A stretch of 64,000 nt of DNA from Lachnospiraceae bacterium (GTDB lineage: Bacteria > Bacillota > Clostridia > Lachnospirales > Lachnospiraceae), in assembly GCA_015056865.1 (NCBI GenBank), contig SVFM01000007.1, positions 1 through 64,000 on the forward strand, in the 5' to 3' direction. This document shows positions 1,745-62,569 of this stretch, piece after piece (within the stretch, counting starts at the first letter, position 1; every line of letters begins with the position of its first letter). The notes beneath the pieces were generated by a model. It saw only the letters and a program-made list of their open reading frames with translations. It had not been told where the DNA came from and searched no databases. The position numbers and the translations under genes are program-made.

Positions 1745-2311
1745 GTGGGAAAACAGATCTGGAGACCGGGGAATATGCTGTATCCGCTGCCGGTGGTGAT
1801 GCTCAGTGTGGCAGGTAAAGGCGGGGAAGAAAATATCATTACAGTTGCTTGGGCAGGGACTATCTGCAGTGATCCGGCAATGGTATCCGTTTCCGTCAGG
1901 CCGGAGCGCTATTCTTACAAGCTGATGAAAGAGACGGGAGAGTTTGTGATCAACCTGACTACCAAAGATCTGGCGTTTGCCACAGACTATTGCGGTGTTA
2001 AGAGCGGAAGAGACATCGATAAATTCAAAGCAATGCACCTGACTAAGGTGCCTGCATCCATTGTACGGGCCCCTATGATTGGAGAGAGCCCTGTGAATAT
2101 CGAGTGCAAGGTAACAGAGGTCAAGGCGTTGGGAACCCATGACATGTTCCTGGCAAATGTGGTGGCGGTGCACGCAGATGAAAAATATATGGATGAGAAC
2201 AATAAGTTCCATCTGGAATGGGCAGAGCCGATTGTATATTCCCACGGAACCTATTTTACTTGCGGTCAGGCAATAGGAACCTTTGGATATAGCGTAAGAA
2301 AAAATAAATAA
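1745..2311 (+). CDS. Flavin reductase-like FMN-binding protein (flavoredoxin family)
   Basis: 188 residues matching the flavin reductase-like/flavoredoxin family: an N-terminal W-R-P-G-N-x-L-Y-P-x-P core, the strand NIITVAWAGTICSDP, SVSVRPERYSY, and GEFVINL. Family members bind FMN and shuttle electrons to or from NAD(P)H or partner redox proteins in the cytoplasm. The start is GTG at 1745, with AGGAG nine bases upstream immediately after the previous stop. It is the last gene of the relQ unit, and a large hairpin element begins four bases after its stop. The natural electron partner cannot be told from sequence. Confidence 0.85.
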   Translation: MGKQIWRPGNMLYPLPVVMLSVAGKGGEENIITVAWAGTICSDPAMVSVSVRPERYSYKLMKETGEFVINLTTKDLAFATDYCGVKSGRDIDKFKAMHLTKVPASIVRAPMIGESPVNIECKVTEVKALGTHDMFLANVVAVHADEKYMDENNKFHLEWAEPIVYSHGTYFTCGQAIGTFGYSVRKNK

Positions 2312-2314
2312 AAT

Positions 2315-2580
2315 TGTCGGGTGGTTGTGTATGTTTTGTTACCTTATCTCTCAAGGAGCAGTGCCGCCCGGAAACAAGAAACTCACCTCACTTGGACGCG
2401 CTTTCGCTCCGTGAAAAAGCGTAGTGGTCGCTAGACTCGAGGCTCAGCGCTATGCGCTTTGCCTGACCTCGTCAAGCGCCAACGTTTTTCAAGGGTCCAT
2501 CGTTGAGGTGAGTTTCTTGTTTCCGGGCGGCTATTTCCCCTTGCAAGACAAAATAACAAAACAGGCACAACCACACGATA
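2315..2580. repeat. Long hairpin element A (conserved core, element-specific arms)
   Basis: Inverted-repeat arms of about 75 bases fill almost the whole gap between two convergent genes. The inner 28 bp (2363-2390 against 2504-2531) are perfectly complementary; the outer arms are imperfect but clearly paired (for example GGTTGTG with CACAACC). The core (2395-2497) begins GAC-GC-GCTTTCGCTCCGT, an A-run and GCG, and ends CG-TTTTT-CAA-GGGTC; it holds a further hairpin, CGAGG...CCTCG. The same core recurs in element B at 62350-62441 although the arms are unrelated. The position fits a bidirectional terminator or a dispersed non-coding element. Open frames across it are read as chance. Confidence 0.85.
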
Positions 2581-2583
2581 AAT

Positions 2584-3792
2584 TTATTTTTCTGATGGGG
2601 AGCGAAGCAGGCTTCCCCGCATGACTGCATCCGAGCCATATCTGGAACGGATGGCGTCCAGGGCGGCGTCCAGCTTCTGCTGTTTTTCTGAAGATTGTGT
2701 CATATCCAGATCAAACAGACTGAGCTGCATGGGTTCATCCTCGGGCTGTAGCTTGGAGGCGCGGATGCCCAACAGTCGGATGGGTCCCAGGCCCCACAAT
2801 TCGTCGAACAGTGCCACCGCGGTCTGATAAATGGTATCGTTGGAGGCGGTGGGTGCCGGCAGGACAGTCTGGTGTGAGACGGAGCGAAAATTACTGTATT
2901 TGATCTCTGTACAGATCAGAGCGGCCGTCTCATGGGAAGTGCGAAGTCTGCTGCCTACGGATTCGGCCAAGGAAAGCAGTACCCTGCAAGCCTGCGCTCG
3001 GTCAGTGACATCTTTGGCCAGGGTAATGGAGTTGCCCACGCCTTTATGCTTTACAGGTTCGGAGATAACCGGAGAATCATCCAGGCCTCTGGCAAATTTC
3101 TGGAGCAAAACCCCGTGGCTTTTTAAATGAGAATGTATGATATTGGAATCTGCAGCTGCCAGATCTCCTATGGTAAGGATCCCCAGTTTACGAAGACTTT
3201 CCACGCTGGAGCGTCCGCACATAAACAGGGAGGAAACCGGCAGGGGCCATAATTTATCGGCAATCTCATGGGAGTAGAGGGTGTGGACCAAATTGGGCTT
3301 TTTAAAGTCGGAAGCCATTTTGGCCAGCACTTTCCGGTCGGAAATGCCTACATTTACGGTAAAACCAAAGCGGGCATGCACCTCATCCTTGATGGAGTGT
3401 GCAGCAGCCTCCGGGGAATCATAAAAACCGGCAATAGGCGTGTAATCCATGTAACACTCGTCCACGCTGGTCTGCTCAATGTCAGGGCAGATGTTCCGCA
3501 AAAATTCCATCAGCGTGTGACTGCGGCGTTCATACATTTCATGGTCCGGAGAGTCCATGATCAGGTTGGGGCATTTGCGAAAGGCGTTAACCACAGGCTC
3601 ACCGGTGACAATGCCATAGGCTTTGGCCGGAACGGATTTGGCCAGGACCACACCATGCCGTTTTTCCATATCTCCGCCGATGATGGAGGGGATCAGGCGC
3701 AGGTCGGTTGCAGCTCCCTCACTCAGGCGCTGCAGTGCCGTCCAGCTTAAATATGCAGAATTTACATCGATGTGAAAAATGATCTGATTCAT
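2584..3792 (-). CDS. dinB: DNA polymerase IV (Y-family translesion polymerase)
   Basis: 402 residues. The N-terminus HIDVNSAYLSW holds the first catalytic aspartate; SVDECYMD near residue 110 is the SxDE motif with the second acidic pair; a helix-hairpin-helix region (LRKLGILTIGDLAAA) and little-finger domain follow. QLSLFDLD near the C-terminus is a sliding-clamp binding motif. It copies damaged DNA at low fidelity at the replisome. I set the start at the ATG complementary to 3790-3792, preceded by AAAGGAGGG; an in-frame ATG 30 bases further upstream has no such site. It is convergent with the relQ unit, separated by hairpin element A, and divergent from the M23 gene. No LexA box was identified. 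Confidence 0.9.
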   Translation of the reverse strand: MNQIIFHIDVNSAYLSWTALQRLSEGAATDLRLIPSIIGGDMEKRHGVVLAKSVPAKAYGIVTGEPVVNAFRKCPNLIMDSPDHEMYERRSHTLMEFLRNICPDIEQTSVDECYMDYTPIAGFYDSPEAAAHSIKDEVHARFGFTVNVGISDRKVLAKMASDFKKPNLVHTLYSHEIADKLWPLPVSSLFMCGRSSVESLRKLGILTIGDLAAADSNIIHSHLKSHGVLLQKFARGLDDSPVISEPVKHKGVGNSITLAKDVTDRAQACRVLLSLAESVGSRLRTSHETAALICTEIKYSNFRSVSHQTVLPAPTASNDTIYQTAVALFDELWGLGPIRLLGIRASKLQPEDEPMQLSLFDLDMTQSSEKQQKLDAALDAIRSRYGSDAVMRGSLLRSPSEK

Positions 3793-7033: not shown

Positions 7034-7150
7034 CTCTTATTCAGAGTGGTGGAGATACATAGGATCGGTGAAGCCACGGCAACCCCGTTTTTGCGGAAGG
7101 TGCCTCCCTGAGCGAGCAATACTGTCGGTTGACAGATCGAACAATAAGAG
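7034..7150 (+). promoter_or_regulatory. SAM-I (S-box) riboswitch
   Basis: The closing stem pairs CTCTTATT (7034-7041) with AATAAGAG (7143-7150). Inside are the conserved S-box pieces: AGAGTGGTGGAG after the stem, GGTGAAGCCACGGCAACC, and AAGGTGCC. S-boxes bind S-adenosylmethionine and usually switch off methionine and SAM genes by terminator formation; a terminator follows at 7175-7202 and metK comes next. The paired ends and conserved joints leave little doubt about the class. Confidence 0.95.
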
Positions 7151-7216: not shown

Positions 7217-8407
7217 ATGGAAAAATTACTATTTACATCAGAATCAGTGACTGAGGGACATCCGGACAAGCTGTGTGATGCAGTATCAGATGCGATTCTG
7301 GATGCCATGCTGGAACAGGATCCCATGAGCCGTGTGGCCTGTGAGACAGCGGCTTGTACCGGTTTTGTACTGGTGACAGGTGAGATCACCAGCGGTGCGC
7401 ACGTGGATATTGCAAAAGTGGTGCGCGAAACAGTAAAAGAGATCGGTTATAACAGATCCGAAGTAGGATTTGATGGCAATACCTGTGCGGTATTTGTGGC
7501 CATCGATGAGCAGTCCGCAGATATTGCCATGGGTGTGGACAAGGCTTTGGAGGCCCGGGAAAACAATATGTCTGATGAGGAGTTGGAGGCCATCGGCGCC
7601 GGTGACCAGGGCATGATGTTCGGTTATGCCACCAATGAGACCGAAGAGTTTATGCCTTATCCCATCTCCCTTGCGCACAAACTGACCAAGCAGTTGACCA
7701 AGGTCCGTAAGGACGGTACCCTGCCCTACTTAAGACCGGACGGCAAGAGCCAGGTTTCTGTGCAGTATGACGAGGCCGGTAAGCCCATCCGTCTGGAGGC
7801 AGTAGTGCTTTCTACCCAGCATGATGCAGATGTTACCCAGGAACAGATCCATGAGGATATTAAAAAGTATGTGTTTGATCCGATTTTGCCCGCAGAGCTG
7901 GTAGATGCAGAGACCAAATACTTTATCAATCCCACCGGCCGTTTTGTGATCGGAGGTCCTCACGGTGATGCGGGTCTGACAGGCCGCAAGATCATTGTAG
8001 ATACTTACGGCGGATATGCCCGTCACGGCGGCGGTGCCTTTTCCGGTAAAGACTGTACCAAGGTAGACAGAAGTGCAGCTTATGCAGCCCGTTATGTGGC
8101 TAAAAATATTGTGGCAGCCGGTTTGGCTGACAAGTGCGAGATCCAGCTGTCCTATGCCATCGGTGTGGCACAGCCTACCTCTGTCCGCGTGGACACCTTT
8201 GGCACCGGCAAGATCTCTGAACTGGAACTGGTGGCTATCATCCGTGAAAACTTTGACCTGCGCCCGGCAGGCATCATCAAGATGCTGGATCTGCGCCGTC
8301 CTATCTACAAGCAGACCGCGGCCTACGGTCACTTTGGCCGGAATGATCTTGATCTGCCTTGGGAGAAGCTGGACAAGGTAGAGGTGCTTAAGAAGTATTT
8401 AGGATAA
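7217..8407 (+). CDS. metK: S-adenosylmethionine synthetase
   Basis: 396 residues, the usual length. It makes S-adenosylmethionine from methionine and ATP in the cytoplasm. Motifs: [20 protein letters not shown] at the N-terminus, [12 protein letters not shown] (methionine/ATP site), and [16 protein letters not shown] with the second-half signature. AAAGGAGG lies seven bases before the ATG. It is controlled by the SAM-I riboswitch immediately upstream, so the product closes a feedback loop on its own synthesis. A strong terminator follows, so it is a single-gene unit. Confidence 0.97.
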
Positions 8408-61196: not shown

Positions 61197-62282
61197 ATGG
61201 ATTTACAGGATAGGATCAGTAGATTTTGCATAGAAGGGAGCCTGGTGAAGGCGCAGGAGTACGGCAACGGTCATATTAATAGAACTTATTTGGTTGAAAC
61301 CGACCGAAAGAAGTACATATTTCAGAAAATCAATACGGCCATTTTTCAGGATGTGGAAAGTTTGATGGAAAATATAGCGGGGGTCACATCTTATTTGACA
61401 GAGACCATTCGTCAGAGGGGGGGAGATGTGGACCGGGAAACCTTGCAATTGATCCCTACTGTGGAAGGAAAACGGTTTTACAGGGATGAGGATGGGGCGT
61501 GCTGGCGCATGTACCTGTTTATCACAGAGGCTACCAGCTTTGATGCGGTGGAAAAGCCGGAAGATTTTTATGCCAGCGCAGTGGCTTTTGGTAATTTTCA
61601 GTCTTTGCTTGCAGAGTATCCGGCCCAGACGCTGCATGAGACCATACCGGATTTTCACAATACGCCCAAGAGATATGCGGCTTTTTGCCGTGCAGTGGAA
61701 GCGGATCGCTGTGGACGTGCGGGCAGTGTCCGGGCGGAGATAGAGTTTGTGAAGGCCCGTCAGCAGGAACTGTCTGTGCTGATGGATATGCTGGAAAAAG
61801 GGCAGCTACCCTTGCGGGTAACCCACAATGATACCAAGCTGAATAATGTGATGATCGACGATGCAACGGGCAAGGGGATCTGCGTGATCGATCTGGATAC
61901 AGTGATGCCGGGGCTCTCTGTCAATGATTTCGGAGATTCCATCCGTTTTGGTGCCAATACTGCGGCAGAGGATGAGACGGATCTGACCAAAGTATCCCTG
62001 GATTTGAATTTGTACGAGTGCTACATTAAGGGTTTTTTGGAGGGCTGCAACGGAAGTCTTACAGAGAATGAACTACGAATGCTTCCTGTGGGCGCAAAGA
62101 TGATGACCATGGAATGTGGCATGCGCTTCTTGACAGATTACCTGTCGGGGGATACCTACTTTAGGATCCATAGGGAGCATCACAATCTGGATCGTTGTCG
62201 TACCCAGTTTGCACTGGTGGCGGATATGGAGAAAAAGTGGAGCCGCATGGAGGAGATCGGCAGGCGGTATTGGGGAAAATAG
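61197..62282 (+). CDS. NahK-like N-acetylhexosamine 1-kinase (APH-fold phosphotransferase)
   Basis: 361 residues, the length of Bifidobacterium NahK. The aminoglycoside-phosphotransferase fold is shown by YGNGHINRTYLVE (nucleotide loop), the Brenner motif LRVTHNDTKLNNVMIDD with catalytic Asp, and ICVIDLDTVMPGLSVNDFGD with the metal-binding Asp, then SIRFGANTAAEDE, a NahK hallmark. NahK phosphorylates the C1 of GlcNAc or GalNAc from host glycans. GGGAGG precedes ATG 61197. It is divergent from an AraC gene and followed by hairpin element B, then the creatininase gene. Confidence 0.8.
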   Translation: MDLQDRISRFCIEGSLVKAQEYGNGHINRTYLVETDRKKYIFQKINTAIFQDVESLMENIAGVTSYLTETIRQRGGDVDRETLQLIPTVEGKRFYRDEDGACWRMYLFITEATSFDAVEKPEDFYASAVAFGNFQSLLAEYPAQTLHETIPDFHNTPKRYAAFCRAVEADRCGRAGSVRAEIEFVKARQQELSVLMDMLEKGQLPLRVTHNDTKLNNVMIDDATGKGICVIDLDTVMPGLSVNDFGDSIRFGANTAAEDETDLTKVSLDLNLYECYIKGFLEGCNGSLTENELRMLPVGAKMMTMECGMRFLTDYLSGDTYFRIHREHHNLDRCRTQFALVADMEKKWSRMEEIGRRYWGK

Positions 62283-62299
62283 AAAAAATATTACACATA

Positions 62300-62491
62300 G
62301 AGGATTAAGTGTCTCTGTAGTCGGGCTGTGGGACACTGGGGCTATGAAAGACATGCTTTCGCTCCGTAAAAAACGCAACGGTGCTAAGATTTTTCTGCGC
62401 AAAACGCTTGAAAAATCAAGTGCCGGCGTTTTTTTAGGGTCTTTCATAGCCCCAGTGCCCCGCAGCCCGACTACAGAGACACTTAATCCTC
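62300..62491. repeat. Long hairpin element B (conserved core, element-specific arms)
   Basis: Two 53-base arms (62300-62352 and 62439-62491) are complementary at 51 of 53 positions; one of the two exceptions is a possible G-U pair. The 86-base loop has the same core as element A: GAC-AT-GCTTTCGCTCCGT, an A-run with CGC that can pair to GCGTTTTTT, then TTA-GGGTC. An inner CTTGA/TCAAG hairpin caps it. The arms show no similarity to those of element A. It fills most of the gap between the NahK-like and creatininase genes; a T-rich tract follows. The open frame across it is read as chance. Confidence 0.88.
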
Positions 62492-62569
62492 ATTTTATTA
62501 TAGTTTTTTTTCTTTTTTTGTAGTATGATACTGGTGATTGGATCCGGCGGCGAAAAGGAGGAAAAAGCT

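Follow-up and report, generated by a model that had tools for sequence, protein, structure and literature searches.

The stretch of DNA analysed here, referred to as the window (64,000 nucleotides, 64 kb), holds two long palindromes, elements A and B, each with a gene on either side. The gene ahead of element A is flavin-reductase-like and ends at 2311; after A comes a gene with DinB-type polymerase domains, which lies on the other strand and runs from 3822 down to 2584. Ahead of element B is a phosphotransferase-family gene with its end at 62282, and B is followed by a creatininase-family gene at 62525, with T runs present beyond the right arm of the element. An initial annotation of this DNA had described the same core in both elements, placed at the tip of a long inverted repeat, and this description is borne out by an inverted-repeat scan of the window (at least 24 nt, exact 12-nt seed, spacing of at most 400 nt), in which A and B were the only two repeats found. 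The core as delimited by the covariance model introduced below is at 2394-2498 in A and 62349-62442 in B, as compared with 2395-2497 and 62350-62441 in the annotation. The parts of the two elements are as follows.

2306..2589, + strand: element A, whole palindrome with a type 2 core (inverted repeats; DNA fold z -16.6)
2306..2356, + strand: outer left arm of A, 51 nt, 80% complementary to 2539-2589
2363..2390, + strand: inner left arm of A, 28 nt, 100% complementary to 2504-2531
2394..2498, + strand: conserved tip (core) of A (model R1, 75.3 bits; A is among the 9 sequences of R1)
2400..2412, + strand: one-sided 13-mer of A, GCTTTCGCTCCGT (exact match)
2504..2531, + strand: inner right arm of A (inverted repeat)
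2539..2589, + strand: outer right arm of A (inverted repeat)
62276..62515, + strand: element B, whole palindrome with a type 1 core (inverted repeats; DNA fold z -19.2)
62276..62352, + strand: left arm of B, 77 nt, 86% complementary to 62439-62515
62349..62442, + strand: conserved tip (core) of B (model R1, 94.2 bits; B is among the 9 sequences of R1)
62355..62367, + strand: one-sided 13-mer of B, GCTTTCGCTCCGT (exact match)
62439..62515, + strand: right arm of B (inverted repeat)

Both elements fold as DNA much more stably than shuffled sequences, with the z values listed above. Their arms are unrelated to each other, and the common part is the tip only, approximately 95-105 nt, which is laid out as a short stem (GGAC/GTCC in A), the 13-mer on one side, the stem GAAAAACG/CGTTTTTC and an inner hairpin. 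The two exact occurrences of the 13-mer are the only ones in the window, and with two mismatches allowed there are three matches, against a shuffle mean of 0.8, a count of 3 being reached in 2 of 100 shuffles. The 13-mer had been annotated as unpaired and one-sided; in the folds of A and B the opposite side indeed holds no continuous partner for it, but a mini-hairpin of 2 or 3 bp forms around TTTC and CC is paired with GG. The tip loop is a possible candidate for a protein-binding loop.

Copy number, spread and genomic context

A pattern search of the genome returned 7 copies, with none for the reversed pattern, and a covariance model (R1) was derived from 9 copies that include A and B. With 150 of the 342 candidates in this genome scored, R1 gave 63 rows at E<=0.1, which after removal of 14 opposite-strand echoes leaves at least 49 distinct tips; these are sorted into type 1 and type 2 as 28/21 in one analysis and 33/16 in another. 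Within the genus, where a subset of the candidates per genome was scored, at least 87 of 138 genomes are matched at E<=0.01, and in a sample of the order the model matches at least 22 of 295 genomes at E<=0.001, belonging to 10 of 129 genera and all to one family. A scan of named genomes for an exact 19-mer yielded 79 stretches, 70 of which have an R1 match at E<=0.001 (the other nine being L058, L062, L066, L079, L099, L109, L111, L113 and L115); by assembly label, which may be wrong for drafts, 44 are Lachnospiraceae/Butyrivibrio, 14 Muribaculaceae, 8 Blautia, 5 Ruminococcus and the remainder others. Most of the genomes are drafts, and the copies fetched from them are mostly the top-scoring ones and not a random set. 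The search of this genome and of other Lachnospiraceae thus found many further copies with paired arms, and the annotated idea of a dispersed family with a conserved tip holds for the 49 tips of this genome and the matches in its relatives. Carriage by plasmids or phages was rejected, element B (one 231-base query, blastn) having no match in the plasmid and phage collections.

The copies are dispersed and mostly intergenic, a single one of the 49 (L165) being inside a called read-through ORF. By a simple and coarse ORF rule, 27 copies have their nearest ORFs arranged in tandem, 15 lie between divergent and 7 between convergent ORFs. The position directly after a stop codon that had been annotated for A and B is correct for these two but is no rule of the family, 15 of the 49 copies lying between divergent ORFs. 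The same counts bear on the suggestion that the elements serve as a 3'-end or termination device. T runs beyond the arms are present in 3 and 8 of 49 copies for the two senses, compared with 6 and 6 in controls, and because of this lack of enrichment and the many copies between divergent ORFs, an intrinsic terminator or 3'-end device was rejected. Terminator scans at A and B found none; such scans admit loops of 3-8 only and are blind to hairpins of this length.

Ends, target duplications and the related insertion sequence

The copies that appear young (the labels young and old being assigned from ends, duplications and likeness) are found in relatives, where they run from TAGG to CCTA over mostly 205-209 bp, with the tip flanked by approximately 62 nt to the left and to the right. 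Their terminal inverted repeats, TAGGNNNTTGCGAAAC, are the same as those of an insertion sequence. The fetched copies of one relative (G102) are near-identical over their full length, and in G127, G044 and G130 many copies resemble one another. Among the 130 copies examined, both ends were recognisable in 27, and 12 of these 27 are flanked by target duplications of 10-12 bp (direct repeat score >=7), as compared with 1 of 702 swapped-flank controls. The hairpin family is thus a transposable DNA element, a MITE family. In this genome, 3 of the 49 copies (L154, L159 and L165) still have such ends, and none of them has duplications. Neither recognisable TAGGNNNTTGCGAAAC ends nor target duplications were detected by the same kind of scan at A and B, which look like old MITE copies whose recognisable ends are gone, and their membership of the family therefore rests on the tip and the arm layout. 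The objection anticipated in the initial annotation, that the two copies might turn out to be known IS ends, is accordingly right for the young copies of the relatives, which carry IS1182-like IS ends, and does not apply to A and B.

Several TAGGNNNTTGCGAAAC ends in G102 lie at contig ends, as repeated sequences show, and one of these led to the insertion sequence, which is 1742-1769 bp long and was found in three copies (L287, L289 and L290). L289 and L290 are flanked by exact duplications of 12 and 13 bp, and a broken copy (L296) has, by eye, a 12-bp duplication with one mismatch, while none was seen for L291. The transposase of this insertion sequence, 490 aa, matches Pfam DUF772 at 5e-13 and the NCBIfam model for IS1182 at 2e-20, with 72.9 bits against a cut-off of 270 bits, and is IS1182-like, short of a family assignment. 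A search at E<=1e-20 detected the cognate transposase in 9 of the 138 genus genomes; the present genome gave no match, and here, as in other drafts, the gene may have been lost in assembly. The one IS1182 transposase of this genome above the cut-off (L409, G000:C24:16653-18158; 454.6 bits, 512-aa open frame) was rejected as the cognate enzyme because its ends, GAGGGTGTCCCAAAA, are unlike those of the family.

Short elements with TAGGNNNTTGCGAAAC ends and no conserved tip were found in G127, G130 and G044 (L259, L261, L262 and L265, in which the tip motif is absent with up to 3 mismatches allowed), indicating that the tip is dispensable for mobility. Four copies in G058 (L309, L311, L313 and L316) carry the same kind of tip between other ends, approximately GGGGCTGTTGCAAAATAG, with no target duplication found, and the tip apparently moves with ends of different types.

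Arm pairing within and between copies

The arms were scored over 62 nt each, and in this genome they pair far better with each other than with the arms of other copies: the own-arm score is 40.2 for 33 copies and 42.8 for the other 16, as compared with 7.8 and 6.9 with the right arms of other copies, and for 47 of the 49 left arms the best-scoring partner is the own right arm. Nearly exact arms occur in the family (67/71 in L332, 52/53 in L241). Pairing in this genome mostly stops approximately 62 nt from the tip, which is the arm length of the young copies, with a modest excess at 64-94 nt, where 8 of 49 copies are above the 95th percentile of the controls. Between copies, the type 1 left arms have an identity of 0.58 against 0.54 when shuffled, and several are homologous by eye. 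The type 1 left arms are G-rich (601 G and 327 C over 50 nt, with G exceeding C in 31 of 33), and the type 2 left arms show little bias (229 G and 206 C, G exceeding C in 9 of 16).

The sets of alike copies from relatives differ from this. For own and foreign partners the scores are 27.5 and 27.5 in G102 (4 copies), 20.1 and 17.4 in G127 (12), 23.3 and 21.5 in G130 (6), 22.0 and 16.6 in G044 (6) and 33.5 and 31.5 in a set of four G058 copies, and in all of these sets the left arms are mutually similar, with scores of 35-62. Six further G058 copies give 31.8 and 11.1, so that 10 of the 12 fetched from that genome were scored, L312 and L314 being left out on account of a contig end close to the tip. 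In G032 (9 copies) the tips are alike, at 0.87 score per base, and the arms are largely private (33.9 own, 14.1 foreign). The old copies here are better arm-matched than most young ones, though the young G058 set (33.5) and RUI181 (34.5) come near the level of the old copies.

Changes in the arms were counted between pairs of copies of this genome whose left arms are at least 0.68 identical (33 and 21 pairs, from 14 and 11 copies picked by eye), at positions with aligned partners, a choice that favours paired positions; so counted, double complementary changes outnumber single ones by 119 to 55 and 56 to 15. No excess of double changes is present in G127 (67 double, 218 single), G044 and G130 (86, 357), G032 and G111 (161, 195) or G058 (59, 73).

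The flank of element A finds its closest DNA match at approximately 76% identity, too distant for an empty site to be recognised, so the sister genomes G032 and G111 were used instead. Among 40 copies in G032 and 27 in G111, nine pairs were obtained at first; two of them, involving L407, were discarded because their matches were short and crossed. At the remaining 7 sites the flanks match, on both sides for 6 of them and, owing to a contig end, on one side for the seventh. The flank pieces are of 500-730 nt at 81-89% identity, with an additional 97-nt piece at 95%, and the orientation of the element is equal in all 7 pairs. At 5 of these 7 sites the arms look unrelated between the two genomes (left scores of 6-9, right of 7-9), while the own arms pair at 15-35. 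In L385/L364, one of the 7 pairs, a contig end leaves L364 with just 17 nt of left arm. A more lenient measure, the gapped identity over aligned left-arm positions, gave 76-89% for every one of the 7 pairs and was not used. At the two other sites the arms can be aligned: in L375/L368, 3 of 4 stem changes replace one Watson-Crick pair by another through a change in each arm, two of the three being neighbours, and in L363/L399 this is so for 4 of 12.

The tips at two of these sites point to descent. L375 and L368 have in common an uncommon tip variant that is present in 1 of 40 and 1 of 27 copies, at that site alone, and a second variant (1 of 40 and 4 of 27 copies) is common to L377 and L350, whose arms are unrelated; these shared variants argue for descent at both sites even where the arms differ, moderately so for L377/L350. 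Three shared sites differ in tip length (93-96 against 82-83 nt). At a further site, L165 in this genome (G000) and L319 in G057, an element is found between the same two genes in opposite orientation.

Origin of the matched arms

From arms that are private and matched to themselves, together with a conserved tip, we infer that one arm has been copied onto the other by template switching, and the elements are probably a MITE family that shares its ends with an IS1182-like insertion sequence and whose arms have been copied onto each other in this way. According to this model, the IS1182-like transposase, or a close one, would have moved the MITEs in trans, as the shared ends suggest. During replication, the long hairpin would allow the polymerase to switch template and to copy one arm onto the other, a mutation in one arm would thereby be written into both, and the two arms would change in concert. 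Copying would mostly spare the tip, where the 13-mer is one-sided and the loops are small. Two copies of this genome have symmetrised tips, in L178 at the inner stem and in L177 by pairing of the 13-mer region, and there the copying apparently reached the tip; the nearly exact arms of L332 and L241 likewise look rewritten. Template switching is reported to create, maintain and repair hairpins (in the portion of PMC8794818 drawn on here) and to alter quasipalindromes (likewise in the parts used of PMC8794818, PMC6649704 and PMC8604942, the last of which also names spacer inversion). As in the quasipalindromes that these excerpts describe, both arms of the inverted repeats change together; unlike them, the hairpins described here belong to a mobile family of which each genome can carry dozens of scattered copies.

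It has to be noted that two observations speak against template switching. Five of the seven shared sites have changed faster than copying and ordinary mutation should give, with flanks mostly at 81-89% identity, and the better match of arms in old than in young copies is not uniform, as the G058 and RUI181 scores given above show. In a different and tentative model, inheritance concerns the conserved tip, whereas the whole hairpin around it is rewritten, its arms being newly made when one arm or adjacent DNA is copied by fold-back, and this much faster than the neighbouring DNA changes. On the same reading, which is possible and no stronger than that, orthologous copies in sister species would keep the tip and have no arm sequence in common, and the tip would promote or survive the rewriting.

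A further model, the main rival, is stem-loop replacement, in which an incoming hairpin moved by an IS1182-type transposase supplants a resident one and so mimics the rewriting of arms. IS1272, which is tied to the IS1182 family, is reported in the part of PMC5678879 consulted to replace inverted repeats with no target duplication, and the transposase found here is IS1182-like. Such replacement would explain the re-used sites, namely the seven of G032 and G111, three with different tip lengths, as well as the opposite orientation at L165/L319, and the four G058 copies with other ends and no target duplication are in line with it. A replacing hairpin brings its own arms, though, so that the copies of one genome should share them, which they mostly do not here and partly do in G032. 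The equal orientation at all seven shared sites, the uncommon tip variants common to two of them (one, L377/L350, with unrelated arms, a moderate argument) and the target duplications of the TAGG-type young copies (12 of 27) also stand against this model, which is judged unlikely.

Less probable still is the reading of the hairpin as a structured RNA, acting as a transcript whose arm pairing is maintained by selection. The tip covaries strongly: across the 9 copies, both partners have changed in 15 of 33 pairs, a level that, like the observed pairing, is reached in 0 of 500 shuffles; further pair types are no more numerous than after shuffling (309 of 500). As the 9 copies are kin, this covariation indicates that pairing has been kept and is no proof of RNA. 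If a folded transcript were kept, G.U should exceed A.C on the functional strand. The arm mismatches in this genome are 97 G.T and 122 A.C, so that the tip-bearing strand has no G.U excess overall, nor has it one by gene arrangement (G.U/A.C over 60 nt of arm: 34/37 and 21/20 in the tandem classes, 18/31 in the divergent and 6/16 in the convergent). The eight other sets are near balance, with a sum of 154 G.T and 148 A.C in which a few copies are counted twice (e.g. L049 also in G032, L088 also in G112). Among sets of related copies, G.T and A.C are 16/2 in G102 (four near-identical copies), 31/30 in G127, 26/23 in G044 and 27/19 in G130. The 67 copies of G032 and G111 have 30 G.T and 158 A.C, the largest excess among the counted sets and one that falls partly in columns shared by descent; far from the tip, in the outer arms, the counts are 16 and 57. 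Read on the opposite strand, this A.C excess would equal G.U and favour an RNA, and it and the leaning to A.C of the divergent and convergent classes here could reflect selection on that strand. The orientation of the copies to genes is mixed, as given above, and Rfam yields no above-threshold family on the element: across the whole window nothing reaches threshold on A or B, and in a relaxed search of 12 loci the elements have sub-threshold matches only, to miRNA hairpins and the like (one tRNA was found in L011). The RNA element put forward in the initial annotation is thus not supported by these data, and an RNA gene, riboswitch or attenuator was rejected for want of an Rfam family, of a G.U bias here and of a uniform orientation. 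The sole Rfam match of the window lies elsewhere, a SAM riboswitch (RF00162, 67 bits) at 7034-7150, upstream of an ORF at 7217.

That the tip inserts into the loops of pre-existing palindromes, with the arms being host sequence, would fit arms that vary from site to site but is very improbable, given that the scan shows no further long inverted repeat in the 64-kb window, that pairing here mostly ends at the arm length of young copies (approximately 62 nt from the tip) and that several type 1 arms are homologous by eye.

Among known systems, the family resembles prokaryotic MITEs as portrayed in the part of PMC10969869 used here, in being short, mostly intergenic and hairpin-forming, with terminal inverted repeats and with target duplications in young copies; it is unlike them in that, in this genome, each arm matches its own partner only and that the tip is best conserved even though tipless elements with the same ends exist. 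The match of the end-sharing insertion sequence's transposase to the IS1182 model is a likeness to IS1182/IS1272 (PMC5678879, consulted in part); its 72.9 bits, below the 270-bit cut-off, and the target duplications of young copies, which that partial source reports to be lacking in IS1272, set the two apart. REP/BIME elements and the associated RAYT systems are also high-copy palindromes between genes, with a GTAG-type tag and a RAYT gene as hallmarks; the present hairpins have much longer arms, target duplications and other ends. Literature searches returned nothing on this family for the 13-mer, nor among the matches listed for Butyrivibrio palindromes and IS1182 MITEs (ISfinder and subscription papers being outside the scope), and the literature returned on Lachnospiraceae MITEs held nothing on it either.

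Covarying stems usually count as proof of a functional RNA. Here there are dozens of covarying hairpins per genome with little sign of one-strand wobble outside one pair of genomes (G032 and G111), and these hairpins warn against calling such repeats RNA genes. They also offer a natural setting in which to ask whether long stems can be maintained by template switching and nothing else, and would allow its rate to be measured in a bacterium. If it is the reading with arms made afresh that is true, bacterial template switching would have a natural recorder in this family.
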